From Pseudalkalibacillus salsuginis (GTDB taxonomy: Bacteria > Bacillota > Bacilli > Bacillales > Fictibacillaceae), in NCBI RefSeq assembly GCF_021646685.1, contig NZ_JAKJHW010000003.1:1-64000 (forward strand): 64,000 bases of DNA, written 5' to 3'. The notes under the pieces were generated by a model that saw only the letters and a list, made by a program, of their open reading frames with translations, made no database searches and was not told where the DNA came from. Made by a program: the position numbers and the translations under genes. Shown here in pieces: positions 23,437 through 40,834 of this stretch. How positions within the stretch are numbered: position 1 is the first letter of the stretch; the number at the start of each line of letters is the position of its first letter.

Positions 23437-23455
23437 ATACAGGTAAATTACAGGT
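23437..23455 (+). promoter_or_regulatory. ATACAGGT direct repeat, site a
   Basis: ATACAGGT (23437-23444) and TTACAGGT (23448-23455) repeat with an 11-base period. A TTGACA box lies at 23404-23409, so the repeat probably overlaps or just follows the transcription start of the operon that begins with the beta-propeller gene at 23563. The same arrangement recurs at four further sites in this locus. Confidence 0.65.
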
Positions 23456-23562
23456 AATCGTTTAATCGAGAGCAGCCATATGTATGTTAAGACTTACCAC
23501 ATCTCAAAAATCTATCAGTGAGGAAAAATATGGGTTATTTTAAAAGTTGGGAGGGTAATGGA

Positions 23563-25395
23563 ATGAAGGACTTGGGAATTATGGCAAATGTAACAGAAAC
23601 AAGAACAGCTGCAGTTTGCAAAAATAATGCTGGTCGAGAAAAACTGGTAATCGCAGCAAAAGGCTTTTTGGCCGTTGTAGATCCTGAGAACGATAGCAGT
23701 AGTCAGGTTAGGTTCCCTTCAGGTATTAATGAATATCCATACATATGTTTTGCGGATTCTAACGGGTATTTTTATACCGGTTCAGGGAACGCTTTCATTG
23801 TCTTTGATCCCTTTGAAAATGTAATCATCGATATTCAACTCCCTTTACCACAAGAAGAAGCGGTGGTTTTTGCATTGGCTGAGGGAAGAAACGGTGAGAT
23901 TTTTACATGTACATATCCTAGTCTTTTTTTACTCGAATACAGACCGAATACACAATCATTCCATAATCATGGTAAATTAGATGAAACAGAGAAATATGCT
24001 GGGACAATTGCAGTAGACGACCTAGGTTGGGTTTATATTGGAATTGGTACAGAAAATAACGACATTAAAGCATACCATCCTCCTAGTAAAAAGAAAAAGT
24101 CATTGCTACAGGAAAGAGGCCGAGGTACTGGGTATGTACATTTAGGTAAGGATGGAAATGTTTATGCCCAGATCATTTCTGGGAATTTGCGAAAACCATC
24201 CCCCCATGAACAATGGTTTCAATTAAAAGGAGGACAATTATACTCAATAGATAAAAAAGTGGTTGTACCTTCGCATTATTCAGGGGAAGGTTTTCAAGTG
24301 TGTCATCAGGCGTTATCTAACTTTGAAATTTCCTCACTAGACTTAACTACGAAAGAAGTTCTTCTTTGTTGTAAAAAGACAAACCTGAAGAAAAATATAC
24401 CTATTGACTATGACTCTGAAGGCGCCCAACTTTCAATTTTAACTCAGGGACCAAACGGATTACTATATGGCACATCAATGCATCCTCTTCACTTTTATCA
24501 ATATGATCCTAGTAAAGATGAGAAAGAAAATTTTGGTTCAGTGGCTATTCAAGAGGGGGGAGGTGGTAATATAGGCGCCTTTGCTACTCAAAATAGGACG
24601 ATGATAGGTGCAGCTTATGCTGGTGGAAAGGTGCATAAATTCGATTTCACAGAACCCTTCGAATTTTACTCTGATAAAAAAAGAAACCCCCAACTAGTGT
24701 GTTCCCATGAATCGATTCACCGTCCACGTACTGCAATTTCCCATCCAGATCAGGAACATATTGTGATTGGTGGTTATCCTGGCTATGGTATGGTAGGGGG
24801 TGGGCTGGGGATTTTTAACACAAGAATGAATAAGATGACACTGATAAGTCATGAACGTACGCTACCGTACCATAGTACGATTTCGCTTGCTGTAAAGAAG
24901 AATGGTGATCTTATTGGAGGTACAAGTATTCTAACACCAGGTGGTGGGACACGGAGGGCAATTGAAGCAAAACTTTATGTTATGGATTGGAGCTCTAGGC
25001 AGGTTTTAAAGGAAGAAGTACCAGTGAAGGGTGCAGAAGCAATTGTTGATATAACAGTTGATCAATATAATCGTATTCATGGTATCACGTCGGATGGTAT
25101 CTATTTCGTTAACGATTCTAATATTGAAAACGCATTGGTAACTGAAGATCTATCCAACCTAGGATTGCCAGTTCGAAAATCCTTTATAGATAATGAGAAT
25201 ACACTGTATTGTCTATTAACTCATGCTATTATAAGAATAAATAAGCTAAGCGGCGATATTCGAGTTATTCACCCTACCGAACATACGATTACAAGTGGTG
25301 GAGTACTTGTCAACATGAAGCTTTATTTTACAGTTGGTAGTCATTTATTTAGTTTTCAATTAAATAAGGGGGGAGCGGAAGAAAGTGAGTTATAA
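23563..25395 (+). CDS. Cytoplasmic beta-propeller protein of the uronate locus
   Basis: The 610-aa product lacks a signal peptide and is built of repeating short strands with motifs such as DSNGYFYTGSGN, DDLGWVYIGIGT, GPNGLLYGTSMHP and GYPGYGMVGGGLGIFN. This is the pattern of a beta-propeller. It is visibly related to the secreted protein at 28018 across the propeller. Several polysaccharide lyase families have propeller folds, and the neighbours are lyase, GH88 and Kdu genes. A lyase or oligosaccharide-binding role is therefore possible but not shown. No catalytic motif was recognised. The ATG at 23563 follows TGGGAGGG; an upstream in-frame GTG at 23518 is less likely. The next gene overlaps its end by 11 bases. 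Confidence 0.7.
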   Translation: MKDLGIMANVTETRTAAVCKNNAGREKLVIAAKGFLAVVDPENDSSSQVRFPSGINEYPYICFADSNGYFYTGSGNAFIVFDPFENVIIDIQLPLPQEEAVVFALAEGRNGEIFTCTYPSLFLLEYRPNTQSFHNHGKLDETEKYAGTIAVDDLGWVYIGIGTENNDIKAYHPPSKKKKSLLQERGRGTGYVHLGKDGNVYAQIISGNLRKPSPHEQWFQLKGGQLYSIDKKVVVPSHYSGEGFQVCHQALSNFEISSLDLTTKEVLLCCKKTNLKKNIPIDYDSEGAQLSILTQGPNGLLYGTSMHPLHFYQYDPSKDEKENFGSVAIQEGGGGNIGAFATQNRTMIGAAYAGGKVHKFDFTEPFEFYSDKKRNPQLVCSHESIHRPRTAISHPDQEHIVIGGYPGYGMVGGGLGIFNTRMNKMTLISHERTLPYHSTISLAVKKNGDLIGGTSILTPGGGTRRAIEAKLYVMDWSSRQVLKEEVPVKGAEAIVDITVDQYNRIHGITSDGIYFVNDSNIENALVTEDLSNLGLPVRKSFIDNENTLYCLLTHAIIRINKLSGDIRVIHPTEHTITSGGVLVNMKLYFTVGSHLFSFQLNKGGAEESEL

Positions 25396-26398
25396 ATTAG
25401 ATGATTTATTGCATCAAGGAGTTCCCTCTCTTTCTAGTGAAATCAATACATTAGAACAATGGTCAGCAAAACGAAAGAAAATACAATCTGTATGGCTTCA
25501 CTACATTGGCGGCCTCTCAAAACCGATAGAAACATCATATACAATCAATAGATCAGAAGAGACAAGAACATACAAACGTCAACATATTACTTACAAAACG
25601 GCTTTTGGTGACAAGGTAACGGCGAATTTACTTATTCCCAAAAGAATTGAAGATGAGAAATTTCCAGCGATGCTAGCTCTACATTCGACTGATTCTAAAG
25701 GTAAAGATGATGTTTCTCATCCAAAAGGTAGAAAGAATCGAAATTATGGAATCGAACTTTGTGAACGGGGATATGTCGTTCTAGCGCCTGATGCAATTAC
25801 CGCTGGTGAGCGTGTCTATAAGGGCGCCGAACCATTTCAAACAAAAGAGTTCTATGAGCAGCATTCGAATTGGAGCGCTGTAGGAAAAATGTTGACTGAC
25901 CATATACAGGGTTTAGACCTGTTGCAATGCCTTGACTTTGTTGATGAAGATAAGCTTGGGGCTATCGGACACTCCCTTGGAGGTTATAATGCCTTTTTTC
26001 TTGGTGGATTAGATGAACGTGTTAAAGTAGTCGTATCAAGTTGCGGTTTAAGTGTTCTTTCAGGTGATCCTGAAGTACACAGGTGGGGTCATCGTTCATG
26101 GTTCAGCCATATACCAATGTTAAGCGAAGTTATTAAAAAGGGCTATGTACCATTTGAGTTCCATGAGATAGCCGCACTTGTTTTCCCAAAACCATTTTTC
26201 AACTGGTCGTGTATGAATGATCATATTTTTCCGCACTGGGAACCTATCATGAAAGGTCTAAAAGAAATGAATGATTTATACCAAAAGTTTGATGAAGACC
26301 AAAAATTCATGCCTTTAGTTGGGAATGCAGGTCATGATTTCCCAGAAGGAATAAGGGAATTAGCATATTCATTTATCGACCGTTGGTTAAAGGCCTAA
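25385..26398 (+). CDS. Alpha/beta hydrolase, probable sugar esterase
   Basis: This 337-aa cytoplasmic protein has the alpha/beta hydrolase fold of the dienelactone hydrolase/acetyl-xylan-esterase-like group. The nucleophile elbow is GHSLGG with Ser197. The strand AMLALHSTDSKG probably shapes the oxyanion hole, and GNAGHDFPEG near the C-terminus supplies the likely catalytic His. The GTG start at 25385 lies inside the end of the propeller gene, so the two are translationally coupled. In a uronate-degrading operon it may remove acetyl or methyl esters from imported oligosaccharides. The substrate is inferred from context only. Confidence 0.75.
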   Translation: MSYKLDDLLHQGVPSLSSEINTLEQWSAKRKKIQSVWLHYIGGLSKPIETSYTINRSEETRTYKRQHITYKTAFGDKVTANLLIPKRIEDEKFPAMLALHSTDSKGKDDVSHPKGRKNRNYGIELCERGYVVLAPDAITAGERVYKGAEPFQTKEFYEQHSNWSAVGKMLTDHIQGLDLLQCLDFVDEDKLGAIGHSLGGYNAFFLGGLDERVKVVVSSCGLSVLSGDPEVHRWGHRSWFSHIPMLSEVIKKGYVPFEFHEIAALVFPKPFFNWSCMNDHIFPHWEPIMKGLKEMNDLYQKFDEDQKFMPLVGNAGHDFPEGIRELAYSFIDRWLKA

Positions 26399-26420
26399 TA
26401 TAAAGTTAGAGGAGCTGTAC

Positions 26421-27845
26421 ATGGTGTTAAAGAGAGAGAATACATTCGAAAAAAAATATAACATATTTTTGACAGAATTAAAAAATGAAATCATAAGTGG
26501 GAGAATCAAGTGCGGAGAGTTTATTCTTCCTGAAAATCAATTAAGCAGACAATATGAATTAAGCCGGGTATCAATCAGGAAAGCACTTGCGAATCTTGTG
26601 GAAGAAGGCTTGATTGAGAAAATACCTGGGAAAGGAAACAGGGTAGTGTTCAGTGAAAAAATCTCTCGGCAAACCATTAAGCTCGCATGGTTTTCGACCT
26701 CTTATGAACTGGATATCATACAGAGGATCATTACTGAGTATGAAGAACATAACCCGTATGTTAAAGTAGATTTTCAAATTCTTCCTGAAGTAGAATATGT
26801 CGATCAGCTTACTCGACAAATGGAACAAGGTAAGGGGCCAGACTTATTTATGGTTTCCGATTCACAGTTTCGCGAACTGATGGAAGCTGGAAAAATGAAT
26901 CTAATTGAACCTTATTTGTCGTCTAATTTAGACGAAGATAGGGACAGTTATCGACAAGTATTTGGAATGTTTTCTTATCATGGAAAAATGGTAGCAACAC
27001 CTCTTTTATTTTCTCCCGTTGTCATTTGTTATAATGAAAAAATTTTTGAAGAAACGGGTTTGAACGTAGATTCGATTAATAATTGGGATGAACTATTGGA
27101 AGTTGCTAAAAAATGTACGAAAGACCTTGATGGTGATGGTCTTGTTGAGCAATACGGTTTTTCTTTTTCATCCTCTTACCATAGATGGCCCGTTTTTTTA
27201 TTACAAAACCATGGACGATTAATGACAGCTAATCGAAATCGTTTTACTTTTGCAGATAAGGCAAATGTTGAAGCATTACAATATTGCATTGATTTAATGT
27301 ATAGGTACAACGTTTCTCCAATCTTTACCCATGGAAGTAATCAGCTTGCTGAAGATATTTTTCAGAAAGAGCGTGCTGCTATGATTTTGACAACTTATTA
27401 CTATTTAAACGAATTTAGAGGAAAGAACATACGCTGGGATGTTCTCCCGGTTCCCAAGAAAGAATTGCCATCAACTTTGTTGCTAGGTGGAGGGCTCGCT
27501 ATTAATAAAAATTCTAAAGTTAAAGCGGTCGCTCAGGATATGATCGATTTTATGGTTAGTAAAAAGGCTCAAACCATTTTAAAGAAATTTGGTTGTACAA
27601 TTCCTGTATTACGTTCAGTGGCAGAAGACAATTCTCTTCTTGATGACAAAGTTCACCCCAAAAATTATAATGCATTTATTGAAGTACTCCCATATGCACA
27701 TACCATCAATGAACTAAACCTTACTTCATCAGAAGTTAAACTTTTGCAAAGTGAATTAAACCTCCTATGGGCCAATATGGAAAGCCCGAAAGAAGCTTGT
27801 TTAAGGATCGAAAAGATGATGAATCAACAGTTAGCCGAATCATAA
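26421..27845 (+). CDS. GntR-type regulator fused to a solute-binding domain
   Basis: Residues about 10-75 form a GntR-family winged helix (IISGRIKCGEFILPENQLSRQYELSRVSIRKALANLVEEGLIEKIPGKG, shown here as QLSRQYELSRVSIRKALANL). Residues about 85-470 are an extracellular-type family-1 solute-binding domain (YEEHNPYVKVDFQIL, GPDLFMVSDSQFRELM, GLVEQYGFSFSSSYHRWP). There is no signal peptide, so the binding domain should act in the cytosol as an effector sensor, as LacI-type regulators use another binding-protein fold. It follows the esterase gene after 22 bases and ends in a terminator that overlaps its stop. It is the likely local regulator of the uronate locus, sensing an imported oligosaccharide. 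That role is inferred. Confidence 0.82.
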   Translation: MVLKRENTFEKKYNIFLTELKNEIISGRIKCGEFILPENQLSRQYELSRVSIRKALANLVEEGLIEKIPGKGNRVVFSEKISRQTIKLAWFSTSYELDIIQRIITEYEEHNPYVKVDFQILPEVEYVDQLTRQMEQGKGPDLFMVSDSQFRELMEAGKMNLIEPYLSSNLDEDRDSYRQVFGMFSYHGKMVATPLLFSPVVICYNEKIFEETGLNVDSINNWDELLEVAKKCTKDLDGDGLVEQYGFSFSSSYHRWPVFLLQNHGRLMTANRNRFTFADKANVEALQYCIDLMYRYNVSPIFTHGSNQLAEDIFQKERAAMILTTYYYLNEFRGKNIRWDVLPVPKKELPSTLLLGGGLAINKNSKVKAVAQDMIDFMVSKKAQTILKKFGCTIPVLRSVAEDNSLLDDKVHPKNYNAFIEVLPYAHTINELNLTSSEVKLLQSELNLLWANMESPKEACLRIEKMMNQQLAES

Positions 27846-27863
27846 GACTCGGCTTTTATTTTT
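27833..27863 (+). terminator. Rho-independent terminator overlapping a stop codon
   Basis: AGCCGAATC (27833-27841) pairs with GACTCGGCT (27846-27854) with one wobble pair, followed by TTTTATTTTT. The stop codon of the GntR fusion gene lies in the hairpin. It separates the first transcription unit of the uronate locus from the next. Confidence 0.85.
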
Positions 27864-27980
27864 GGTTATACGACTTAAGACCCACCACCGCCCCTTTTTA
27901 CAGCCTAAAGCCTTATTTATGGTTGTAATTTTCTGAATATTATTGACAAACTACATAAAATGACATTAATTTAGTCTTGT

Positions 27981-27999
27981 ATACAAGTAAAATACAAGT
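27981..27999 (+). promoter_or_regulatory. ATACAGGT-type direct repeat, site b
   Basis: ATACAAGT occurs at 27981-27988 and 27992-27999, an 11-base period. The first copy is also part of the perfect palindrome CTTGTATACAAG (27977-27988), a shape often bound by GntR-family proteins. A TTGACA box lies at 27943-27948. The repeat ends 18 bases before the start of the secreted propeller gene, so it sits in the early transcribed region. Confidence 0.65.
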
Positions 28000-28017
28000 A
28001 TATTTAGGAGGTAGATG

Positions 28018-30921
28018 ATGAGACGGAAAATACCGCGTAGTTTGTTAGGGATCGTTATTCTGTTATTATGTTTCTTAAGTTTTGGTGGTACTTTTGCTAA
28101 GGAAAGTCCTGAAAAAGATGAATTAGACTGGATTAAAATTGTCCCTCAATCATTAAATTTAAAGGTTTCTGATACAAAGCAGGTGCAAGTGATCGGGAAG
28201 AACAAAAATGACAACGCTTTTAAAGTTAAAGATTTTTTATTAGATTCTGATAATAAAAATGTTTTACGAGTTGAGGGGAAAAATGTTGTAGGAATTTCAG
28301 AAGGAAACACCACTCTTAAAGCTACATATTTGGGAAAAACAGATGAGATTGATGTAACTGTGAGAAATGTTCCTCAAAATAAATCAGATTATCAAGTAAA
28401 ATTTCTCTTTCCCGACAGTGTTGGAACAGGAGAGCAGACACCGGTTCCAATTACCATAAGCACAATAGAGGAGAAGAAGCACGGTTATAATAATGTTCAT
28501 TATTCATTTGAAAAAATAGCTGGACCTGGTGATGTACTCGTAAATTTAGAACAGAATGAAGAACTTAACACCTATAAAAATTCGTTTCAAACTGATTCAT
28601 TTAATCTACCTTCCAACTATGAAGAAACATTAAAAACAACCATGAAATTTACCGTTACCGGTTCCTATGCAATTTCCTTTAAAATACTTTCGGATGAAGG
28701 GAAGCTGATTGCAGAAGGATATGAAGTTATTGATATTAAACCGGCTTTTAAGGACTTAGGTACTCAAATTGAAAAACTTACGATCATGAAAGGTGCTTTT
28801 GGAAAAGATGAAAATGGCAGGGAAGTAGCTTATACGGTCATTGCCGGAGATCCTGCAAAGCTGGCTATTGTTGATCTTGAAACAGAAGAGGTAATAAAAA
28901 CGCTGTCTCTTCCTGAAGCGGAAGTGGCATGGGCAATTACTGTAGCCAGCGATGGAACAGTATATGCTGGATCAACTCCAAATGGAAGTCTTTATAAGTA
29001 TGTCCCAGGCTCTGGAGAGGTTGTTAATCTAGGAAAGCCTGTACCAGGGCAAACGGTTATCTGGGATCTAACCCCTGGTAAAGATGGAAAGGTTTATGGA
29101 GGAACATATTATGATGGTCATACCTTTGAATATGATCCTCAAGAAGGATTCACTGATTTTGGTGTGATGCAACAAGGCGAAGAATATGTACGAAGCGTTG
29201 CGTATGATGAAGAGGAACATGTTCTTTATGCGGGCGTAGGCGCACACGCACACTTAATCAAATATGATATCAATACTGGAACAAAGGAAAACATTCTGCC
29301 TGAAAAATATAAAGATTACATTTCTGTCTATGATTTAAACTTAGAAGGTGGAAAACTATTTGTAAAACTCGAGCCGAATTTTCAAATGTTCGTAATGGAT
29401 AAAGAAACAGGTGAAATAGACTATGAAATGAATGTTCATTCTCGAGGTGTGTCCCCTCTATCACCTGATGGGACAAAAATTTATTATACCTATGCAGGAA
29501 TACTCTATGAGTACAATCTCATCCAAAAAGAGGCGACAGAGGTAAAAATAGGTGGTAAAACAGTGAACCTCGGTGGGGCTGTTATCGGTTTTGCTTATCC
29601 AGAACTTTCTGGAGATGCATTTAACGGAACAAACCTTGTTGGATTTGTAGGCAATTATAATGGCGATTTTTTCAAATACAACCTTAATACGAGTGCTTTG
29701 AAAAAGTCAGTACTGGACCTGCCTCCTCAACCAACAGACATTTATAATATCGGTGCCGGACCGGACGGTAAGATTTACAGCTCCGGATTCATCGGAGGGG
29801 GGGTTGGGATTTATAATCCAACGACAGATCAAACCGTACAAGAAACGGGTCTTGGTCAGATGGAAGGCATGGCATCCATAGGTAATAAAATTTACTTTGG
29901 TGTTTATCCAGGAGCCAGATTATATGAGTATGATACAACCAGACCATGGGATAGAAGGAGAAACCTGAATCACTTGTTCTCATTACATGATGAGTTTGAG
30001 CAAAATCGTACCGTTGCCATTGAAGCGGTCGAAGAAAGGAATGAGCTTTACATTGCATCTACCCCGGACTATGGAAAGCTAGGAGGAGCACTTTCGATAT
30101 ATAACACCACAACAGGAGAGATTGACGTATATCGTCATATTGTGCAAAACCAAAGTGTGATTTCTTTAGCAGAAAAAGAAAATAAAATATGGGCTGGAAC
30201 AAGTGTATATGGTGGAACAGGGCAGGAACCAGTAGAAACAGAAGCGAAATTATTTTCCTGGGATATCGAGTCTAGTGAAAAAGAATATGAATCTGTTCCG
30301 GTACCTGGGAAAACATCAATTGGAGCTCTAATTAAGGGTCCAGAGGGTCACTTATGGGGGCTTGCACAGGATACATTGTTTATATTTGATCCAAACAAAG
30401 GAGAAACAGTATATTCATCAGTTGAATTTCCGGGAGCACACATTAAGCGTGTAGGTGCATCCCTAGTTCTTGGACAAGATGGAAATATATACGGAACGGT
30501 AGACCAAAAGTTCTTCCGAATTAATGCTGAAACGAAGGAAGTCACTATTCTAAAAGAAAATGCCAAACGTCTCGCAAAAGATAATTATGGCAATATCTAT
30601 TTTATTGAAGGAGGCGTATTATCGAACGGTAATAACATTTGGCGGTATACCTTTGAGGATCATGTCGTAAAAGTGACAGGGGTTACAATGTCTGAAAGTG
30701 ATGTGACATTAACAGTTGATGAAACTTATAAGCTGGAAGCCAGTGTTAAGCCTTCTTTTGCAACGGTGCAAGGTATCAACTGGAGTTCGAGTAACAGTGG
30801 GGTTGCTGAAGTAAGTAGCGATGGAACGGTAACTGCTATTTCCACCGGTAAAGCCACGATTACTGCTGAAAGCGTTGATGGAGAGAAAACGGTAACAGCG
30901 ACAATCACGGTAACAGATTAA
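28018..30921 (+). CDS. Secreted beta-propeller protein with two BIG2-like domains
   Basis: The 967-aa product has a signal peptide (hydrophobic LLGIVILLLCFLSFGGTFA, then KES). Domains: an N-terminal Ig/BIG2-like domain (about 35-120), a sandwich region (125-250), a large beta-propeller (about 255-880) with blades such as ASDGTVYAGSTPNGSLYKY and TPGKDGKVYGGTYYDGHTFEY, and a C-terminal BIG2 domain (VTGVTMSESDVTLTVDETYK). It is homologous to the cytoplasmic protein at 23563 in the propeller. It may bind or cleave the polysaccharide outside the cell. No catalytic residue was recognised, so a lyase role is a hypothesis. ATG 28018 fits AGGAGG at 28006 better than ATG 28015. A terminator hairpin follows at once. 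Confidence 0.72.
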   Translation: MRRKIPRSLLGIVILLLCFLSFGGTFAKESPEKDELDWIKIVPQSLNLKVSDTKQVQVIGKNKNDNAFKVKDFLLDSDNKNVLRVEGKNVVGISEGNTTLKATYLGKTDEIDVTVRNVPQNKSDYQVKFLFPDSVGTGEQTPVPITISTIEEKKHGYNNVHYSFEKIAGPGDVLVNLEQNEELNTYKNSFQTDSFNLPSNYEETLKTTMKFTVTGSYAISFKILSDEGKLIAEGYEVIDIKPAFKDLGTQIEKLTIMKGAFGKDENGREVAYTVIAGDPAKLAIVDLETEEVIKTLSLPEAEVAWAITVASDGTVYAGSTPNGSLYKYVPGSGEVVNLGKPVPGQTVIWDLTPGKDGKVYGGTYYDGHTFEYDPQEGFTDFGVMQQGEEYVRSVAYDEEEHVLYAGVGAHAHLIKYDINTGTKENILPEKYKDYISVYDLNLEGGKLFVKLEPNFQMFVMDKETGEIDYEMNVHSRGVSPLSPDGTKIYYTYAGILYEYNLIQKEATEVKIGGKTVNLGGAVIGFAYPELSGDAFNGTNLVGFVGNYNGDFFKYNLNTSALKKSVLDLPPQPTDIYNIGAGPDGKIYSSGFIGGGVGIYNPTTDQTVQETGLGQMEGMASIGNKIYFGVYPGARLYEYDTTRPWDRRRNLNHLFSLHDEFEQNRTVAIEAVEERNELYIASTPDYGKLGGALSIYNTTTGEIDVYRHIVQNQSVISLAEKENKIWAGTSVYGGTGQEPVETEAKLFSWDIESSEKEYESVPVPGKTSIGALIKGPEGHLWGLAQDTLFIFDPNKGETVYSSVEFPGAHIKRVGASLVLGQDGNIYGTVDQKFFRINAETKEVTILKENAKRLAKDNYGNIYFIEGGVLSNGNNIWRYTFEDHVVKVTGVTMSESDVTLTVDETYKLEASVKPSFATVQGINWSSSNSGVAEVSSDGTVTAISTGKATITAESVDGEKTVTATITVTD

Positions 30922-30923
30922 GG

Positions 30924-30949
30924 AAAGCCAGGCGCTGGCCTGGCTTTTC
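30924..30949 (+). terminator. Terminator after the secreted propeller gene
   Basis: AAAGCCAGGC (30924-30933) pairs with GCCTGGCTTTT (30938-30948), a strong GC-rich stem followed by TTTTC. It could end the single-gene transcript or partly attenuate readthrough into the heparinase-like gene. Confidence 0.8.
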
Positions 30950-30992
30950 AATTCATGTTATTGCTTAAGAAGTATCGTTATACTGACTTAAA

Positions 30993-31011
30993 ATACAAAT
31001 TAAATACAGGT
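30993..31011 (+). promoter_or_regulatory. ATACAGGT direct repeat, site c
   Basis: ATACAAAT (30993-31000) and ATACAGGT (31004-31011) repeat with an 11-base period. The second copy ends 14 bases before the ATG at 31026 and touches the ribosome binding site AAGGTGGGGGAG. A protein bound here could block transcription start or elongation. Confidence 0.55.
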
Positions 31012-31025
31012 AAGGTGGGGGAGAA

Positions 31026-33545
31026 ATGATTAAAAACAATAAAAAACAGGATGTGGAGCTGACCGATATTAATACATTAGAAGTTGGTGAGGAAACTAGG
31101 TTTTCTATTTACCCTTCACCGGAAATGGTAAATGCTATAGTCGAAGATGAGGATATATTAAAGTGGGAAGGCAATAAACTCATAGCAATAACTCAAGGGG
31201 AGACAAAGGTTCGCATCGAAGTCCATTTAAAGGAACAGAAAATTCAATTCGTAAAGAATATTAAAGTCTTGCCTCCTGTTAAAGCTATTTTTTCATTAAA
31301 AGAAACCTCTCATCCTAGACTGTTATTTAATAAGCATGAATTAGAAAAGATGAAGCGATATTTAAATAATGAAGACTTCTGGTTGAAGGACAACTGGACT
31401 AAGTTAGAAAACATAGCTGACAATTTTTCAAATGAAGAATCGTTTGTCATTAAATATGCCACAACTCCGTATGAACTTGAAATTCCTCTTCCGATCACAC
31501 AACTTGCTTACATGGGTGACCCTCCTGGATTTGACGATTATCCATATTGGACGATGTATTCGAGAGCCATTGAAAAACGAATTAAAATCCTTTCTATTGC
31601 TTACCTTATGACCCAAAAGTCGAAATATGCGAATATAGTGAAAGAGTATCTTTTAGCCTTATCAACATTTACGAGATGGTATGAATTCCCATATCGCAAT
31701 GCGGAAGGTAACTTGAGCAACGCCCATTTCACACTTGGCGCTGCCGTTGGATTCGATAGTATATACAATACGCTCTCTTCAAGTGAACGGCTCATAATCA
31801 GTGAGGCTATCAGGGATAAGGGATTAAAACCTCTGGCAATTGATATCGGAAATTTTGATCCACATAATATAATTGCCTCTAAGCAAGTGGCCATGCTGGT
31901 TGGTAGTCTGACAATTGCCGATAAAGTACCTTTCTTAAATAAATATATCAATTCGTCGTATGAGTATTTGAAAACTTATCTGGATAAACGACTGACTACT
32001 ACAGAAACGGAAGGATTATTATATACGAACGTAGCTGCCAGGCATATTATACTCGCAGCTGATGTTTTAAACAGGGTAACTGGGGAGGGTTCTTTGATTC
32101 ACCATGAGTATTTTAAAGAGCAGCTTCCAGAACAATTTATTTATTTTATGGGTACTGGTGAAAAGAATTCATTTGCAAACTTATCAGATTCCTTTTATAA
32201 GTTGGATCTGATGTATTTAATGGCTGTTTTTGCAAGTACGAATAATTATCCGGTTGGATATTGGTATTTACAGAAATATGAAAATGAAAATCCCGAATTA
32301 ATTATCCATTTGAAAAATCAAGGAACAGCTGTTTCACCTGACGAATTTTATAAAAAGAATAAGTCAAAAGTATTTAGCAAAATCGGATGGGCGAGCCTTA
32401 GAAGCGGCTGGGGAAAAGACGACCATTTTCTTGGGTTTACCTCCTCGGCTTCAAACAGGGGACACAACCATTTTGACCAAAATAATTTCGTTCTAAATGT
32501 AGGCGGTGACTGGTTGCTGATCAATCCGGGCTACCAGGACTATGTTCCGGGTCCCGGAAATGACTTTACAACTGGTACGGTAGGGCATAACTGTATGTTA
32601 ATTGGAGAAATGGGCCAAACGAAAAGAGGGGGAGGAAAGATATCTGCTCAGTTCATATCAGCAACTTATAGCTATGTAGAAGGAGATGCGACAAAAAGCT
32701 ACGATGTATATTTAGATCTATGGAAACGTAAGGTGCTGTTTATTGATCAAGCATTTTACCTGATTATTGATAGAGTAGTAGGTGCAGAAGAACATCCACT
32801 AAACTTTCTATTCCATACTCAATCAAAACTCTTTCAAAACGGTAAGGAAATAAAAGTCGGTACTGATGTATCGAATGATATATTAACTTTTAAAGGCGAA
32901 ACAGGACAAGTTGATTTCAAGAGCTTTTCGCCACAAGAAACAATTATTACATTAGAGGAATATGCTGGAGCAGAAAAATACGGACCTTATGTGAATATAA
33001 ATTTTCCTCAGTATCAACCAAAGCGAAATCTAGTTACTTTACTTCTACCGTATCGAAAAGAACAGCTCCCCAAAATCGATGTTTATTCAGTTGTGTTCAA
33101 TAAAGGTTTCGTAAAGCTTGACTATTTATATGAAGATGAAGTAGGTATTCTATATGACGCTTTAGATGATGAATATTATATGGACAGAACCCAAAAGACC
33201 AATGATTTAGAATTCAAAGCTAAACAGTTTCATATAAGATTCGATAAGGAGACCGAAGAATTGCAGAGCTTTGCAGTTATTTCCGGTTCAGAAGTGATAT
33301 GGAAACAAAGAACTTTGGTAGCGTCAAATCATCCTATAAGCATGACTATTGTTCACGAAAAAACCAAAATGACATGTAAATTAACCCTTAATGAAGAGAC
33401 GAAGTTATCTATTTTTTATCCAGATAAGCCTTTAGTCACAATAAATGGAGATTTATACGAAACTAGGTACAATTTTACCGATTCTTGCCTAAATTTGTCC
33501 CTTAAAAAGGGAAATTACGAGCTTGAAATCGAAAGGGAATTTTAA
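31026..33545 (+). CDS. Heparinase II/III-family polysaccharide lyase, cytoplasmic
   Basis: The 839-aa protein has an Ig-like N-terminal segment (about 1-90), an alpha/alpha toroid region (about 110-440) and a C-terminal beta-sandwich with heparinase II/III features. Family motifs are GHNHFDQNNFVLNVGGDWLL and GTVGHNCMLI, carrying conserved histidines. Members cleave uronic-acid-containing polysaccharides such as heparin-like chains or alginate by beta-elimination. No signal peptide is present, so it should act on imported oligosaccharides in the cytosol. With GH88, KduI and KduD it forms a coherent pathway. Which polysaccharide is attacked cannot be told. The downstream yesL-like gene follows after 22 bases. 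Confidence 0.82.
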   Translation: MIKNNKKQDVELTDINTLEVGEETRFSIYPSPEMVNAIVEDEDILKWEGNKLIAITQGETKVRIEVHLKEQKIQFVKNIKVLPPVKAIFSLKETSHPRLLFNKHELEKMKRYLNNEDFWLKDNWTKLENIADNFSNEESFVIKYATTPYELEIPLPITQLAYMGDPPGFDDYPYWTMYSRAIEKRIKILSIAYLMTQKSKYANIVKEYLLALSTFTRWYEFPYRNAEGNLSNAHFTLGAAVGFDSIYNTLSSSERLIISEAIRDKGLKPLAIDIGNFDPHNIIASKQVAMLVGSLTIADKVPFLNKYINSSYEYLKTYLDKRLTTTETEGLLYTNVAARHIILAADVLNRVTGEGSLIHHEYFKEQLPEQFIYFMGTGEKNSFANLSDSFYKLDLMYLMAVFASTNNYPVGYWYLQKYENENPELIIHLKNQGTAVSPDEFYKKNKSKVFSKIGWASLRSGWGKDDHFLGFTSSASNRGHNHFDQNNFVLNVGGDWLLINPGYQDYVPGPGNDFTTGTVGHNCMLIGEMGQTKRGGGKISAQFISATYSYVEGDATKSYDVYLDLWKRKVLFIDQAFYLIIDRVVGAEEHPLNFLFHTQSKLFQNGKEIKVGTDVSNDILTFKGETGQVDFKSFSPQETIITLEEYAGAEKYGPYVNINFPQYQPKRNLVTLLLPYRKEQLPKIDVYSVVFNKGFVKLDYLYEDEVGILYDALDDEYYMDRTQKTNDLEFKAKQFHIRFDKETEELQSFAVISGSEVIWKQRTLVASNHPISMTIVHEKTKMTCKLTLNEETKLSIFYPDKPLVTINGDLYETRYNFTDSCLNLSLKKGNYELEIEREF

Positions 33546-33567
33546 AACACGCTAGGAGGAAACGAGA

Positions 33568-34170
33568 ATGGCGGGCATTATGGGTAAAGTGAACGTTCTG
33601 CTTGAATGGATGATTAAGCTTACATATATAAATATTCTTTGGGGGATATTCACCATAGTAGGGGTAGGGATCTTTGGTATAGTACCTGCAACGGTTAGTC
33701 TTTTTGCAGTTATGAGGCAATGGCTGAAAGGGAATGAGCCGAAGACTTTTGAGGTATTTAAAACATATTACATCAAGGAATTTTTCAAGTCTAATAAACT
33801 TGGATTTTGTTTAACTGTTCTTGGTTTTATACTTTACTTTGATTTGAGCTTTTTCCGTTCCATGAATCATATCATATTTCTGATCCTGACCTATTTTACT
33901 TTTCTATTAATAGTTTTGTATCTTTCATTACTCCTGATCATTTTTCCACTTTATGTTCATCAGAATTTAAAAATTTCACAGTATCTAAAAAATGGTTTTT
34001 ATATAGTAATGTCTAATCCAATGGTGCCAGTATTAATTTTTGCAGGTGTCCTTGGAATTAACGCTTTGATTTTCTTTGTTCCAGGTTTGATCCCTTTTTT
34101 TGCAATTAGTGCTCCAGCTCTTTTTATCATGTGGTTTGCAAATAAGTTATTCATTAAACTCCACCAATAA
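33568..34170 (+). CDS. YesL-like DUF624 membrane protein
   Basis: This 200-aa integral membrane protein has about five hydrophobic helices and the DUF624 pattern (an N-terminal helix with YINILWGIFTIVGVGIFG, then PATVSLFAVMRQWLKG). Such proteins are found next to LplABC/YesOPQ-type oligosaccharide importers in Bacillus carbohydrate loci, B. subtilis YesL being an example. Their molecular role is not established. AGGAGGAAACGAG precedes the ATG at 33568. Here it lies between the lyase gene and the importer genes. Confidence 0.8.
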   Translation: MAGIMGKVNVLLEWMIKLTYINILWGIFTIVGVGIFGIVPATVSLFAVMRQWLKGNEPKTFEVFKTYYIKEFFKSNKLGFCLTVLGFILYFDLSFFRSMNHIIFLILTYFTFLLIVLYLSLLLIIFPLYVHQNLKISQYLKNGFYIVMSNPMVPVLIFAGVLGINALIFFVPGLIPFFAISAPALFIMWFANKLFIKLHQ

Positions 34171-34267
34171 CCCCAAAAAAGTAGAATAGATTCAACTAAA
34201 AATTAAAAAGGTTTTAAATAATTAGAAAATTATGTTGAAATAAGCATTTATTTGATTTACTCTATAT

Positions 34268-34286
34268 ATACAGGTTATATACAGGT
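34268..34286 (+). promoter_or_regulatory. ATACAGGT direct repeat, site d
   Basis: ATACAGGT occurs twice, at 34268-34275 and 34279-34286, in perfect copies with an 11-base period. This is the cleanest site. It lies about 45 bases upstream of the first permease gene, in an AT-rich gap of 160 bases that probably holds a promoter. Confidence 0.7.
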
Positions 34287-34331
34287 ATCAAATACATATT
34301 TATTAAAAGAGCAAGGGGGAGGTTGAAGTCA

Positions 34332-35312
34332 GTGGAAAATCAAACTACGATCACCAATTCCACTAAGAAAGATACAGAAATAACAATAGCAAAACCTATT
34401 AGTAAGCCAATGAAAATTGGGAAAAAGATATGGAAACAGCGTTTCTTATTCCTTCTTTTATTGCCTGGCCTTGTCTATTTTATAGTTTACAAGTATATTC
34501 CTATGTTTGGACTTGTTATTGCATTTAAAGACTATAACCCATTTCAGGGCATATGGGAAAGCGAGTGGGTAGGGCTTAAGCATTTTAAAAATATATTTGC
34601 TACACCGGATGTTTTACAGGTTATTTGGAACACGTTGAATATTTCATTTTTGCAAATATTGTTTGCATTTCCAGTTCCTATCATTCTGGCACTTATGCTC
34701 AATGAACTGAGGGGAAATTTTTATAAGCGTATCATCCAGTCAATTATTTATTTGCCGCATTTTCTATCATGGGTAATTGTTGTGGGGATAACAGTAGTTT
34801 TCTTAAGAAGCGAAGGGTTAATTAATGCTTTTCTACATTCAACATTTGGGTGGGAAGCAATTCCTTTTTTAACTGACCCAGCTTATTTTAAGCCATTAAT
34901 TATTCTTCAAGTTATTTGGAAGGAGTCGGGGTGGGGAACGATTATTTTTTTGGCAGCACTCTCCGGTATAAACCCCCAGCTATATGAAGCGGCTATCATA
35001 GATGGTGCAAACAGATGGCGGCAAATCTGGCACATCACATTACCAGCTTTAAAAAGTACAATCGTTATCCTGGTTATATTAAGACTCGGAAATGTACTCG
35101 ATACAGGATTCGAACAAATCTTTCTGATGTTAAATCCATTCAATATGGAAATTGGAAATGTACTTGATACGTTTGTGTTCTTTAAAGGTATTCAGCAGGC
35201 GGATTATAGCTTTGCAACCGCTGTTGGCCTATTTAAAGGTGCTGTAGGTCTTATACTTGTTGTTTTGGCAAACAGACTAGCAAGACGCTTTGGAAATGAG
35301 GGGCTATATTAA
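34332..35312 (+). CDS. ABC sugar importer permease, LplB-like
   Basis: The 326-aa protein is a binding-protein-dependent permease with six predicted helices. It carries the EAA loop with EAAIIDGANRWRQIWHITLPALK that docks on the ATPase. The N-terminal features VYKYIPMFGLVIAFKDYNPF and GWGTIIFLAALSGI are typical of the LplB/YesP-type group that imports oligosaccharides such as uronides or xylo-oligomers. GTG 34332 is chosen because AAGGGGGAGG lies at a good distance; the TTG at 34323 is too close. It pairs with the next permease and the lipoprotein at 36283. No ATPase gene is in this locus, so a shared MsmX-type ATPase is expected. Confidence 0.88.
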   Translation: MENQTTITNSTKKDTEITIAKPISKPMKIGKKIWKQRFLFLLLLPGLVYFIVYKYIPMFGLVIAFKDYNPFQGIWESEWVGLKHFKNIFATPDVLQVIWNTLNISFLQILFAFPVPIILALMLNELRGNFYKRIIQSIIYLPHFLSWVIVVGITVVFLRSEGLINAFLHSTFGWEAIPFLTDPAYFKPLIILQVIWKESGWGTIIFLAALSGINPQLYEAAIIDGANRWRQIWHITLPALKSTIVILVILRLGNVLDTGFEQIFLMLNPFNMEIGNVLDTFVFFKGIQQADYSFATAVGLFKGAVGLILVVLANRLARRFGNEGLY

Positions 35313-35342
35313 CTCCAAACGTATACGAAAGGTGGGGTTTTG

Positions 35343-36221
35343 GTGCATCATCGCTCGATTAGTGAAAGGATTGCCGACAACCTGAATGTTTTTATTCTTG
35401 CTATTGTTGCAGTTATCATGATTTTTCCGTTCTTTTATATTTTTGCCGTTTCTTTTTCAACACTATCCGACTTTTTGCAAAATGAATTTTTCCTCTGGCC
35501 CAAACGTTGGGTAACAGATGCTTATGAGTACATATTAAGCTCTGAAAACTTTATCCGTTCTCTTGGAATATCGACTTTTGTAACTATCGTTGGTACATTG
35601 ATTAACTTGTTTTTTACCTCAACGATGGCGTATGCCTTATCTAGACCGATTGCTGGGCAGAGGTTCTTTCTGTTCTTTGTATTATTTACCGTGCTGTTTA
35701 ATGCAGGAATGATTCCTACTTACTTAATTGTCAAGGAGACTGGATTAATTGATTCTGTATGGTCATTAATCATTCCGATTGCAATTAGTCCCTTTTATTT
35801 AATCGTTATGCGTCAGTTCTTTAAAAATGTCCCTGATGATATTCATGAAGCAGCTTTAATCGATGGTGCAAATGAATTACAGATTTTCTGGAAAATCATG
35901 ATTCCACTTTCAAAACCTGCACTTGCTGCATTTGGGCTGTTCTACGCCGTAATGCATTGGAACAACTATTTTACAGGAATTTTGTATATTAATGATCCAG
36001 CAAAATGGCCAGTTCAGGTCGTCTTAAGGCAAATAGTAGTTGTTAACGAACCGAATGCTGCGCTTGGCACTGCATCTGAGCTGTTAATGGATAATCCACC
36101 ACCGCCAGAAACCATTCAGATGGCAGCGATCTTACTTGCAACTTTACCGATATTAATCGTTTATCCGTTCTTGCAAAAGCATTTTGCTAAAGGGGTGTTG
36201 CTTGGGTCCGTAAAAGGATAA
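35343..36221 (+). CDS. ABC sugar importer permease, YtcP/LplC-like
   Basis: This 293-aa permease is the second membrane subunit. It shows the N-terminal helix with FPFFYIFAVSFST, the EAA loop EAALIDGANELQIFWKIMIPLSKP, and the ending FLQKHFAKGVLLGSVKG typical of this group. GTG 35343 is preferred over the adjacent TTG 35340 because of the distance from GGTGGGG. It follows the first permease gene by 30 bases, so the two are co-transcribed. Confidence 0.88.
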   Translation: MHHRSISERIADNLNVFILAIVAVIMIFPFFYIFAVSFSTLSDFLQNEFFLWPKRWVTDAYEYILSSENFIRSLGISTFVTIVGTLINLFFTSTMAYALSRPIAGQRFFLFFVLFTVLFNAGMIPTYLIVKETGLIDSVWSLIIPIAISPFYLIVMRQFFKNVPDDIHEAALIDGANELQIFWKIMIPLSKPALAAFGLFYAVMHWNNYFTGILYINDPAKWPVQVVLRQIVVVNEPNAALGTASELLMDNPPPPETIQMAAILLATLPILIVYPFLQKHFAKGVLLGSVKG

Positions 36222-36282
36222 TAAGAAGTTGGCGCTATATGGATGATTCTACACAAATTTCAATGATGGAGGGGAATGAAAA

Positions 36283-37833
36283 ATGCTAAGAAAACGTCTC
36301 AATCTTAGTGTAGTGATTTTGGCTTTATTATTAATGTTGGCTGCTTGTTCGTTCATGGGAGAAACCGATGATTCTGATAAAGCTACAGACAATAAATTAA
36401 AAATCACAGCGATGGATTACCGATATGGGGATCCACCACCAAAGGACGGTCCAGGGTTAAAAATGATCAATAAGAAGTTTAATGTTGATTACCAACCCCA
36501 ATTTGTCCCGCAAGGAGATTATGACGAAAAACTTACAGCGGTTGTTGCCTCAGGAGATCTTCCAGATTTGATTGGGTTTAAAGGAGATGACATGAAATAT
36601 TACAAGTGGGCTGGTCAGGGTGCATTCTTGCCTTTAAATGATTACATAGATAAATACCCAACTTTAAAAGATGTACCTGACTATGTCTGGGATGCTATGA
36701 AAGTCGACGGGGAAATTTATGGGATTCCAACATATTATCCGATCTATGATTTGACTCCTGTTATACGCAAGGATTGGCTTGATAAACTAGGCCTTAAAGT
36801 ACCAACTGATTATGAAGAGCTAAAAGAAGTAGCCCTCGCTTTTACGAAAGAAGATCCAGATGGTAATGGTAAGAATGATACGTACGGAATAGCTATAGGT
36901 GAAATGATTAACCCGGATTATGATATGGGTGCCTATTGGAATGCTGATACCTGGATTCATAAAAATGAAGACGGAGAATATATTCCGGGGTATATATCAG
37001 ATGCAAGAAAAGATTTGATCGAGTTGTTTGCAGATTTATATGATGAAAAGGCTATTACACCTGATTTTTCAGTTATTAATTGGGCGGATACGAATAAAGA
37101 ATTCTATTCTGGCAAAGCAGGTATTTTTATAGGTGCACCTCGCGGGATGTCAGAGGCATATATGCAAAGCCTTCTAGAAATTAATCCTGATGCAGAGTTT
37201 GCACCAATATACCCGTTTAAAGACCCTGAAGGAAATACTGGTTATACGGCACATCCGGGTTATGGGGGGATTATTGCGTTATCTGCTGAAATGGCAAAGG
37301 ATCCAGATAAAATCAAAAAAGTTCTTGAAGTGCTTGATTTTGGGCGTACATTTTATCCAAGAGATCAGCGTAATTCCAATAATGATGACTTTGACTGGTG
37401 GTGGGGTCATGAAGGAACAGGCTACACTATGCAGGATGATAAAGCTGTACTAGTTGAAAACTTTGCTAGTGATGGCCTCGCACCTTCTACTTACTTAGTA
37501 GACAATTCAATGTGGGCACCTTCTGATGAAATGAATGAGTATTCAAAGGACTATAATGTTGATAAACTTTCGAGCCTAGTAGCAGATTTGGAAAAAATGC
37601 ACTCAGATACAAAACATTACGTTAATCCCATTAATGGGATAGTATCAGAAACTGCCCAGCAAAAAGGCGGAGAACTTAATCAGTTATTAATTAATGAACA
37701 AACAAAAATGATAGTAGGTCAGAGACCGATTTCTGACTGGGATAAAATGGTGGAAGAATATATGCAAAAAGGTGGAGCTAAGATTATCGAAGAATATAAC
37801 AAACAAATTAATGATAAAAATTATTGGAAGTAA
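36283..37833 (+). CDS. Sugar-binding lipoprotein of the importer, LplA-like
   Basis: The 516-aa product begins with a lipoprotein signal and lipobox LLAAC. The mature part is a large family-1 solute-binding protein (PDLIGFKGDDMKYYKWAGQGAFLPLNDYIDKYPTL, shown as GAFLPLNDYIDKYPTL). Proteins of this 500-residue class partner LplB/LplC permeases and bind oligosaccharides, for example uronic acid oligomers. It is downstream of both permease genes and upstream of GH88. AGGGG precedes the ATG. The ligand is inferred to be an unsaturated or saturated uronide oligomer from the neighbouring enzymes. Confidence 0.87.
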   Translation: MLRKRLNLSVVILALLLMLAACSFMGETDDSDKATDNKLKITAMDYRYGDPPPKDGPGLKMINKKFNVDYQPQFVPQGDYDEKLTAVVASGDLPDLIGFKGDDMKYYKWAGQGAFLPLNDYIDKYPTLKDVPDYVWDAMKVDGEIYGIPTYYPIYDLTPVIRKDWLDKLGLKVPTDYEELKEVALAFTKEDPDGNGKNDTYGIAIGEMINPDYDMGAYWNADTWIHKNEDGEYIPGYISDARKDLIELFADLYDEKAITPDFSVINWADTNKEFYSGKAGIFIGAPRGMSEAYMQSLLEINPDAEFAPIYPFKDPEGNTGYTAHPGYGGIIALSAEMAKDPDKIKKVLEVLDFGRTFYPRDQRNSNNDDFDWWWGHEGTGYTMQDDKAVLVENFASDGLAPSTYLVDNSMWAPSDEMNEYSKDYNVDKLSSLVADLEKMHSDTKHYVNPINGIVSETAQQKGGELNQLLINEQTKMIVGQRPISDWDKMVEEYMQKGGAKIIEEYNKQINDKNYWK

Positions 37834-37842
37834 GGTTAGATC

Positions 37843-37880
37843 AGAAATGACCGGGGTATTTCAACCGGTTATTTCTACCT
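37843..37880 (+). terminator. Hairpin between binding-protein gene and GH88 gene
   Basis: AGAAATGACCGG (37843-37854) pairs with CCGGTTATTTCT (37865-37876) with one wobble. Only ACCTTTT follows, so it is probably a partial terminator or an mRNA 3' stabiliser that lets the binding-protein message accumulate. A small palindrome CCTTTTAAAAGG directly downstream covers the ribosome binding site of the next gene. Confidence 0.55.
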
Positions 37881-37900
37881 TTTAAAAGGTGGTGTCAGCT

Positions 37901-39118
37901 TTGACTGTATACGTAAAAGATGAGGGTATGATAAATCCGACTTTTAAAAAGTCGTATAAAATTGAGGAACAATTAATTCAGAAAGCAATTAAGACTGCAT
38001 TATTAAAAACGAAGAACAACCTTCAAAAGTTTTATGCTAAATATCCTCACGACCATACAATAGATAACATTTACCCCATACGAATGAGGGAAGATACAGG
38101 GGAAACAACAGCAGAAAATATCGGTTGGACGACTGGGTTCTGGACTGGGATCAACTGGCTTGCGTTTGAGTTGTCTAATGACTCTGAGTTCAGGGATGCA
38201 GGTTCTGCACAAGTTGAGACATTCATCCAAAGAATTGAAAAGATGATCGATTGTAATCATCATGATCTTGGCTTCCTCTATACACTTTCTTGTGTTGCTT
38301 CTAATAACTTGATATCAGATATAAAAGCCAAGGAAGCGGCACTTAAGGCAGCAGATGCATTAATGAATCGTTACTTCGAAGAAGCTTTAATTCTACAGGC
38401 ATGGGGAGATTTGAGGGATCCAAATCAAAGAGGAAGGATTATAATCGACTGTCTGATGAACTTGCCGTTGCTATATTGGGCAACAGAAGTTACGAATGAC
38501 ATGACCTATAAAAATGCTGCCGCTCATCATGCGACAAAAACAATGGAAACCATCATTAGAGAAAATGGCAGTACGTTCCATACGTACTATTTTGATACTG
38601 AAACAGGAAAGCCTTTGTATGGTAAAACACACCAGGGATTCACTGATAAGTCAAGCTGGGCAAGGGGTCAGGCCTGGGCAATCTATGGTTTTATACTAAG
38701 CTATAAATATACGAACAAAAAAGATTTTTTACAAATGTCGAAAACAACAGCCAATTACTTTTTAAACCGTATTTCTGAAGACCTCGTAGTCTATTGGGAT
38801 TTGGATTTTACAGAGGACGATCATGAAGAAAAGGACAGTTCTGCATCCGCCATAGCGGTTTGTGGGTTATTGGAACTTGTGAAATGGCTCCCTGAGGGAG
38901 CAGAAAAATCGTATTACACTAGTGCGGCCAATCAAATACTATACTCATTAATAAAAAATTACTCAACTACTGAGAAAGAGGAGTCCAACGCTTTATTGTT
39001 GCACGGGGTATATTACAAAAAGGGCAATATTGGAGTCGATGAGGGGTGTTTGTGGGGAGATTATTTTTATTTAGAAGCATTGACGCGAATGACTAAGGAA
39101 TGGGATCTGTACTGGTAA
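37901..39118 (+). CDS. GH88 unsaturated glucuronyl hydrolase
   Basis: This family 88 hydrolase of about 405 aa removes the unsaturated 4,5-uronate left at the non-reducing end by polysaccharide lyases. Two conserved acids are seen, Asp122 in HHDLGFLY and Asp183 in IIIDCLMNLPLLYWA. Their spacing of 61 residues equals that of the catalytic pair Asp88/Asp149 in the characterised Bacillus sp. GL1 enzyme. GWTTGFWTGINWLAFE is also typical. No signal peptide is present, so it works in the cytosol. The TTG at 37901 fits the ribosome binding site AAAGGTGGTG; in-frame GTG codons at 37889 and 37892 lie within that site. Confidence 0.88.
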   Translation: MTVYVKDEGMINPTFKKSYKIEEQLIQKAIKTALLKTKNNLQKFYAKYPHDHTIDNIYPIRMREDTGETTAENIGWTTGFWTGINWLAFELSNDSEFRDAGSAQVETFIQRIEKMIDCNHHDLGFLYTLSCVASNNLISDIKAKEAALKAADALMNRYFEEALILQAWGDLRDPNQRGRIIIDCLMNLPLLYWATEVTNDMTYKNAAAHHATKTMETIIRENGSTFHTYYFDTETGKPLYGKTHQGFTDKSSWARGQAWAIYGFILSYKYTNKKDFLQMSKTTANYFLNRISEDLVVYWDLDFTEDDHEEKDSSASAIAVCGLLELVKWLPEGAEKSYYTSAANQILYSLIKNYSTTEKEESNALLLHGVYYKKGNIGVDEGCLWGDYFYLEALTRMTKEWDLYW

Positions 39119-39138
39119 AAATTTTTGATGATGATATT

Positions 39139-39157
39139 ATACATGTGTAATACAGGT
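39139..39157 (+). promoter_or_regulatory. ATACAGGT direct repeat, site e
   Basis: ATACATGT (39139-39146) and ATACAGGT (39150-39157) repeat with an 11-base period. The site lies in the 56-base gap between GH88 and kduI and ends 17 bases before the kduI start. It may mark an internal promoter or a roadblock site. Confidence 0.55.
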
Positions 39158-40005: not shown

Positions 40006-40017
40006 GCGGTGATTTAA

Positions 40018-40764: not shown

Positions 40765-40834
40765 TCTTCATTCAAGGTGGTTGTACTGGTTCCGAAATAC
40801 AATGAAAAATTAACCGATGAAGGTGTGGATACAC

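Follow-up and report, generated by a model that had tools for sequence, protein, structure and literature searches.

The sections of a 2015 survey of GntR regulators considered here name the FadR, HutC, MocR, YtrA, AraR and PlmA subfamilies, with no fusion to a solute-binding protein (SBP) and no word beginning "solute" (PMC4494728). They describe AraR, which acts at sugar genes in Firmicutes, as combining a head of the GntR type with a sensor that resembles a binding protein, and list FarR, NagQ and NanR, alongside GabR, as GntR proteins with direct-repeat motifs (PMC4494728). In the part of the MocR literature covered here, the GntR heads of MocR and GabR also occupy direct repeats, which are explained by head-to-tail dimers (PMC5320631). 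Here we analysed a stretch of 64,000 nucleotides ("the window") from contig NZ_JAKJHW010000003.1 of Pseudalkalibacillus salsuginis (GCF_021646685.1; 19 contigs, 4.29 Mb), in which five direct repeats with a period of 11 base pairs (bp) precede genes of a uronate locus that also encodes a GntR-SBP fusion protein. We regard it as highly probable, on comparative sequence evidence, that the five repeats are the operators of this fusion, which would sense an oligouronide inducer and repress by binding in head-to-tail pairs.

Direct reading of the sequence bore out a first-pass annotation of this DNA, which had placed five sites here (a to e; Table 1), each with an exact 11-bp period. The annotation held that one 8-base word recurs throughout; ATACAGGT is found twice only at site d (34268), and the other sites depart from it at one or two of the 16 word positions (mismatches: a 1, b 2, c 2, d 0, e 1). 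From site end to the start of the listed open reading frame (ORF) we measured 62, 15, 14, 36 and 17 bp for a to e, a narrower range than the 14 to 110 bases given before. At three mismatches or fewer the window contains 5 matches, whereas 100 dinucleotide shuffles gave 0.50 on average and 2 at most, none of them (0/100) reaching 5. The whole-genome motif search that the annotation had suggested confined matches with at most two mismatches to this locus, the five window sites being the sole ones in 4.29 Mb. Exactly three mismatches added 30 more, at background level (35 in total vs. 33 for a reversed-pattern control); the 25 of these that were scored as loci (L006-L030) reached at most 13.6 bits, that one inside an ORF, and 5 were unscored. 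A matrix built from 40 sites of other genomes, with the window excluded from training, placed sites a to e as the top five in the window, and in one simulated Markov genome of equal size two scores reached 14 and none reached 18. Because site e scores 14.2, its support comes partly from its position before kduI. The five sites are genuine, beyond chance.

To compare loci, we took 24 orthologs of the fusion (50-62% identity) from named genomes, together with 16 fusions that have diverged further (26-32%) and 29 matches to other GntR proteins; 9 fusions from an earlier search of relatives brought the diverged-fusion loci to 25 (about 30% identity). At no more than two mismatches, 20 of the 24 loci with orthologs carried 41 sites between them and the reversed pattern gave 0; the comparative check proposed in the first-pass annotation found the repeats present. 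At the same threshold the repeat occurred in 0 of the 25 diverged-fusion loci (reversed 0) and in 0 of the 29 other GntR loci, where the reversed control gave 1 match at two mismatches. Site-bearing orthologs belonged to Bacillus, Psychrobacillus, Fredinandcohnia, Ornithinibacillus and Paenibacillus. Among 100 relatives searched, orthologs (~50% identity) were present in two genomes, G010 and G023, from another genus of the same family; there the repeat precedes a lyase-like gene adjoining the regulator and a transporter operon, in a gene order unlike that of the window, and one site directly follows the regulator gene, as operator b does. With the window, G010 and G023 included, 43 of 50 sites lay at -44 to +200 bp from a same-strand ORF start and 7 did not. 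Homologs of the first permease were the commonest genes behind these sites (18; 17/45 outside the window), followed by those of 40817 (10), the lyase-like gene (4), 28015 (4) and solute-binding or fusion-like genes (4); 23518, KduI and 42713 (the last more than 9 kb away) accounted for one each, and behind 7 sites there was no window homolog. This comparison supports the earlier inference of one regulator for all five sites: that a single regulator would act at all of them, as a uronate regulon, is strongly supported. It is very probably the fusion encoded at 26421-27845, one of the candidates first put forward, as the repeats occur where its orthologs occur. The palindrome CTTGTATACAAG, offered earlier as a cue for GntR, is present at site b and is not kept in orthologous sites, so this cue fails.

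In Pfam, the fusion exceeded the cut-offs of both GntR (PF00392; 47.4 vs. 27 bits) and SBP_bac_1 (117.3 vs. 26 bits). AlphaFold2 modelled it with high confidence (pLDDT 91.6, pTM 0.87), and its top Foldseek match was 5f7v (Lmo0181; E 9.5e-30), the best 50 matches listed all being binding proteins. The C-terminal domain has the same fold as the ATP-binding cassette (ABC) SBPs Lmo0181 (5f7v) and AbnE (6rjy), with TM-scores by target length of 0.84 and 0.81; the fusion differs from them in carrying a DNA-binding head in front and no visible export signal. No such signal was seen by eye in its charged N-terminus, MVLKRENTFEKKYN, and residues 8-25 form a first helix that is part of the GntR head in the model. 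In none of the 41 PDB sequences matched (1e-4) does the best stretch extend over both halves of the fusion; each covers either the GntR head or the SBP domain. A GntR domain was detected in 41 of 41 fusions scanned (69 in the tree). Pfam found only the GntR and SBP domains, and none of the C-terminal domains of the named subfamilies (FadR, HutC, MocR, YtrA, AraR, PlmA), which would make the fusion a GntR protein outside these subfamilies. One such fusion (L186:3196-4614) is labelled extracellular solute-binding protein in RefSeq despite its GntR-like head.

Each of the closest described systems differs from the fusion. The AraR sensor is of the GalR/LacI type, whereas that of the fusion is of the SBP_bac_1/MalE type. 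AraR operators are palindromic; the fusion sites instead repeat at 11 bp. Among HutC-type proteins (TreR, HutC, YvoA/NagR), the TreR and HutC models score best with the winged helix, and YvoA 4u0y is the best of the GntR structures; however, by Pfam the fusion has an SBP domain and no UTRA domain, and no NCBIfam GntR model reaches its curated cut-off on it, the values being far apart (TreR, 52.6 vs. 212 bits). According to the survey sections considered, most HutC sites read GT-N4-AC (PMC4494728), whereas the core of the fusion sites reads GT-N5-AC. The MocR repeats described in the part covered here lie two or three turns apart (PMC5320631), and the MocR sensor has an aminotransferase fold, unlike the 11-bp, one-turn repeats and the solute-binding fold of the fusion. 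FarR, NagQ and NanR belong to the FadR and HutC subfamilies, use other words and are named as exceptions in these sections (PMC4494728).

The first-pass annotation saw one word in the window; relatives add different words at the same 11-bp spacing. Behind -10 elements beside diverged fusions we found ACCAG, GAGTCA and TTAGATAT types, all repeating at 11 bp. These include GAGTCAGATAAGAGTCA in L103 (variants in L105, L109 and L114), TTAGATATAAATTAGATAT in L104 (partial in L097 and L098) and TTATGAACGATTTATGAA in L106 and L107, and TACCAGnTATGAACCAG was found in all nine loci L065-L073 at one mismatch or none. We also counted repeats just after promoter-like elements irrespective of the word (7-letter words with 6 identical, periods 8-26). 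Period 11 was found at 14/162 diverged and 19/182 ortholog elements, compared with maxima of 5 and 6 at other periods, some promoters being entered in several registers; collapsing the registers gave 12/153 and 21/174, with maxima of 5 and 8 elsewhere. Even with no promoter anchor, ortholog loci gave 60 repeats at period 11 vs. 5-15 elsewhere, and 36 at period 21. Free motif discovery by expectation maximisation yielded only ribosome-binding sites and start codons.

The operator word agreed with residues 49-51 of the recognition helix. At no more than two mismatches, agreement held in 51 of the 51 loci with an assigned word, and no locus crossed. R.S helices (26 RVS, 1 RTS) accompanied ATACAkGT, K.S helices (15 KNS, 2 KAS) accompanied ACCAG, and N at residue 49 accompanied GAGTCA (6) or TTAGATAT (1). 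When fusions were merged at 70% identity, 24 clusters had a word (9, 10, 4 and 1), none of them mixed.

We then turned to a held-out set of 17 stretches around further fusions of the class, chosen once the words were known, with matches in 21 of 398 genomes. Apart from that of L182 (86%), none of these fusions shared more than 64% identity with an earlier one. Counted irrespective of the word, 7-letter words with 6 identical gave 7/89 promoter-like elements at period 11, compared with 0-3 at other periods. The search patterns were consensuses of the words found earlier, written down after the held-out listing from the word-independent count had been seen. With these patterns and up to two mismatches, the ACCAG type gave 10 matches in 7/17 loci (L170, L171, L172, L174, L178, L179 and L180), the GAGTCA type 2 (L169, L185) and the ATACAkGT type 4 at 3 places (L182, L184), with 0 in each reversed control. 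None of the seven ACCAG-type fusions exceeded 51% identity to an earlier fusion; those of L178, L179 and L180 are 92-99% identical to each other, and the L171 match lies inside a called ORF. In L184, the fusion at 8154 has the helix SRTSVRK and is at most 33% identical to earlier fusions; ATACAAGT-AGC-ATACAAGT stands near it. On a Mesobacillus foraminis plasmid, the sole one of four plasmid matches covering most of the fusion, a fusion with the helix LSKNSVRK is accompanied by GTACCAGATATAAACCAA, 8 bp behind TTGACA-N18-TATGAT, a site assembled from both ends of the circular record.

The sites also have a consistent place relative to promoters. A promoter-like -35/-10 pair with at most three mismatches was found near 32 of 48 scored sites, compared with 19.6% of 1620 random intergenic points, and 33 of the 45 sites with a promoter match at up to four mismatches start 2-22 bp after the -10 element, 12 lying elsewhere. 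Site a begins 3 bp after the -10-like AATAAT (TTGACA, spacer 18) and site b 10 bp after ATTAAT (TTGACA, spacer 16). A protein bound so close behind the -10 element would block polymerase; we therefore infer that the fusion likely represses these promoters. A repeat-like motif with two to three mismatches also covers the fusion's own ribosome-binding site (at ~9978-10000 in L078-L083, L090 and L092), and the same kind of motif stands just upstream of the fusion gene in L103, L109 and L114. The motif over the ribosome-binding site possibly reflects autoregulation; several orthologs have a putative operator across the start of the regulator gene, and the window has none there.

Taken as a mechanism, the fusion would be a cytosolic one-component regulator whose N-terminal GntR winged helix reads DNA and whose C-terminal SBP domain, of the sugar-importer type, responds to an inducer. 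This inducer is probably an unsaturated oligouronide that the locus enzymes set free. Without inducer, two protomers in the same orientation would sit one helical turn apart on ATACA[GT]GT-N3-ATACA[GT]GT and, paired close behind the -10 element, block transcription; inducer would close the sugar-binding cleft and the DNA would be released. SBP domains of the ABC-importer type are usually monomeric, so the protomers would not be expected to pair symmetrically and would bind head-to-tail instead. Provided that the fusion binds, this arrangement is the probable one.

Several observations weigh against this reading. Eighteen of the 69 fusions lack an assigned word at up to two mismatches in the DNA examined (2 RVS, 2 KNS, 6 NKS, 1 NNS, 1 NAS, 2 NIS, 2 RGS, 1 KSS and 1 KVS). 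Because helix-word pairs follow clades, the 51 agreements cannot count as independent cases; common ancestry accounts for part of them, and some of these loci also served to define the words. Two of the three word-independent settings gave no period-11 signal in the held-out set: exact 6-letter words gave 0 at period 11, and 8-letter words with 7 identical gave 2, with up to 2 elsewhere. Diverged loci without a promoter anchor showed no clear period-11 peak (16 vs. 3-20 elsewhere; period 9 reached 20, and period 21 reached 26). In the window, sites c and e overlap their best -10 match (c by 2 bp), and the promoter matches at d and e are weak (4 mismatches each). Two of these 18 fusions, both diverged, stand beside promoters with an inverted TGTAGTTTTT...AAAAATTACA and no 11-bp direct repeat (L111 after 11293 and L113 after 11335). 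Finally, the ortholog box ATACATGTAT nearly equals its own reverse complement.

Since this box is nearly palindromic, an inverted reading fits it too. The fusion could be a conventional symmetric GntR dimer on the inverted repeat ATACATGT-N5-ACATGTAT with a GT-N5-AC centre, the 11-bp repeat being a by-product of near-palindromic boxes. The bases after the second word are also conserved in orthologs (A 0.74, T 0.66), as a dyad needs, and ATACAGG-N7-CCTGTAT occurs at three sites. With the left word alone fixed, 89 words had a direct partner at +11 in 39 cases and an inverted partner at +13 in 37. Against this, 30 of 61 collapsed sites fit the direct pattern better and only 9 the inverted one, 22 being ties; columns 5 and 16 are both A and columns 6 and 17 both mainly G/T, which is the direct pattern, in sites that were themselves picked with a direct-repeat pattern. 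By eye, the ACCAG, GAGTCA and TTATGAA operators of relatives have no dyad symmetry. For 7-letter words in diverged loci, inverted repeats behind promoters reached at most 8/153 (offset 18), with 6 at several other offsets, whereas direct repeats reached 12 at period 11 and at most 5 at other periods. We rate the symmetric dimer as fairly unlikely compared with head-to-tail binding.

Activation of the promoters by a fusion bound to the same sites is a less probable alternative, and we consider it improbable. In the part of the literature covered here, some direct-repeat MocR-type GntR proteins activate (PMC5320631). The position of 33/45 sites, where a bound protein would obstruct polymerase, argues for repression by the fusion instead.

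The first-pass annotation also proposed the YesN-like AraC regulator, on the view that direct repeats favour AraC. AraC proteins often use direct repeats, and the genes for this regulator (20667-22274) and for a cupin AraC (45070-45897) both lie near the locus. However, in 24 of the 26 other ortholog loci, tblastn (1e-5, in the stretches examined) detected homologs of neither protein, nor of the YesN-associated kinase or the neighbouring SBP; most of these loci carry sites, and we rejected AraC/YesN as the binder on this co-occurrence. The spacing cue does not hold here either: AraC half-sites lie 21 bp apart, and the five sites have 11. The operator word moreover tracks the GntR recognition helix, which leaves binding of the five sites by either AraC protein very improbable. 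The period-21 excess, which at first resembled AraC spacing, was traced to species-specific intergenic arrays, with many matches in coding DNA. Arrays of short words spaced by ~21 bp, the word differing by species (GTGCATAGA, TTACTACAAT, ATGGGCTAT, AATTTCACGA), occur in L073, L084, L087, L093 and G010 (L061). Chance or AT-rich low-complexity repeats have a negligible probability, for the words are indeed AT-rich but shuffles, the whole-genome count and reversed patterns all speak against them.

With the fusion as the preferred regulator, we lean slightly towards a broader proposal: GntR-SBP fusions may form a previously undescribed subfamily of GntR proteins in Bacillota, one that keeps an importer SBP in the cytosol as a sensor, binds head-to-tail one turn apart and has its operator word set by a few helix residues (R, K or N at 49) in a simple, readable code. 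Among the open-access papers searched, no title or opening of an abstract dealt with fusions of GntR to an SBP, and the five operator strings tried were likewise absent. The proposal would supply both the regulator and the operators for a polyuronide locus that occurs in Bacillaceae and in Paenibacillus. Public annotation can file such regulators as extracellular SBPs, as in one case above, and their regulons would then be missed. Given the helix-word agreement, one could predict an operator from the sequence of its regulator, and the SBP sensor could serve as a modular sugar biosensor. One-turn head-to-tail operators would, if true, be an additional geometry in a family whose binding has mostly been described on palindromes.

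Table 1 Predicted operators and genes of the uronate locus in the window.
Feature	Position	Strand	Remarks
Operator a (predicted)	23437..23455	+	ATACAGGT-AAA-TTACAGGT; upstream of 23518, esterase and GntR-SBP genes; matrix score 26.3
Operator b (predicted)	27981..27999	+	ATACAAGT-AAA-ATACAAGT; 15 bp upstream of ORF 28015; matrix score 28.0
Operator c (predicted)	30993..31011	+	ATACAAAT-TAA-ATACAGGT; 14 bp upstream of heparinase II/III gene; matrix score 18.3
Operator d (predicted)	34268..34286	+	ATACAGGT-TAT-ATACAGGT, perfect; upstream of ABC permease genes; matrix score 31.1
Operator e (predicted)	39139..39157	+	ATACATGT-GTA-ATACAGGT; upstream of kduI; matrix score 14.2, weakest
Gene behind operator a	23518..25395	+	625 aa; no Pfam match
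Acetyl-xylan-esterase-like hydrolase	25385..26398	+	Between 23518 and regulator; probable shared transcript, from order and overlap
GntR-SBP fusion regulator	26421..27845	+	474 aa; GntR winged helix at the N-terminus, MalE-type SBP domain at the C-terminus
Gene behind operator b	28015..30921	+	968 aa; C-terminal Big_2 domain
Heparinase II/III-like, probable polysaccharide lyase, behind operator c	31026..33545	+	
ABC importer	34323..37833	+	Permeases 34323 and 35340; SBP 36283, resembling AlgQ and 5gub/5xs8 binding proteins
GH88	37889..39118	+	Like unsaturated glucuronyl and chondroitin-disaccharide hydrolases
kduI and kduD, behind operator e	39175..40764	+	
572-aa protein	40817..42535	+	No Pfam match; homologs have own upstream site in 10/45 cases outside the window

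Pfam and NCBIfam matches (heparinase II/III-like protein, two ABC permeases, SBP, GH88, KduI and KduD) mark the locus as a uronate cluster. Because the SBP resembles AlgQ and the 5gub/5xs8 proteins, and because of the GH88 matches given in Table 1, the substrate of the locus is probably a polyuronide. Upstream of the cluster, at 18246-22274, genes for an SBP, a histidine kinase and the YesN-like regulator stand in a row, the row being undetected in 24/26 ortholog loci. Downstream, 42713-43729 encodes a 338-aa protein with no Pfam match and weak likeness to UDP-glucose 4-epimerase (3ehe); homologs of this protein, 63-66% identical, are found close to diverged fusions in L065-L067, and G010 and G023 have them as well.

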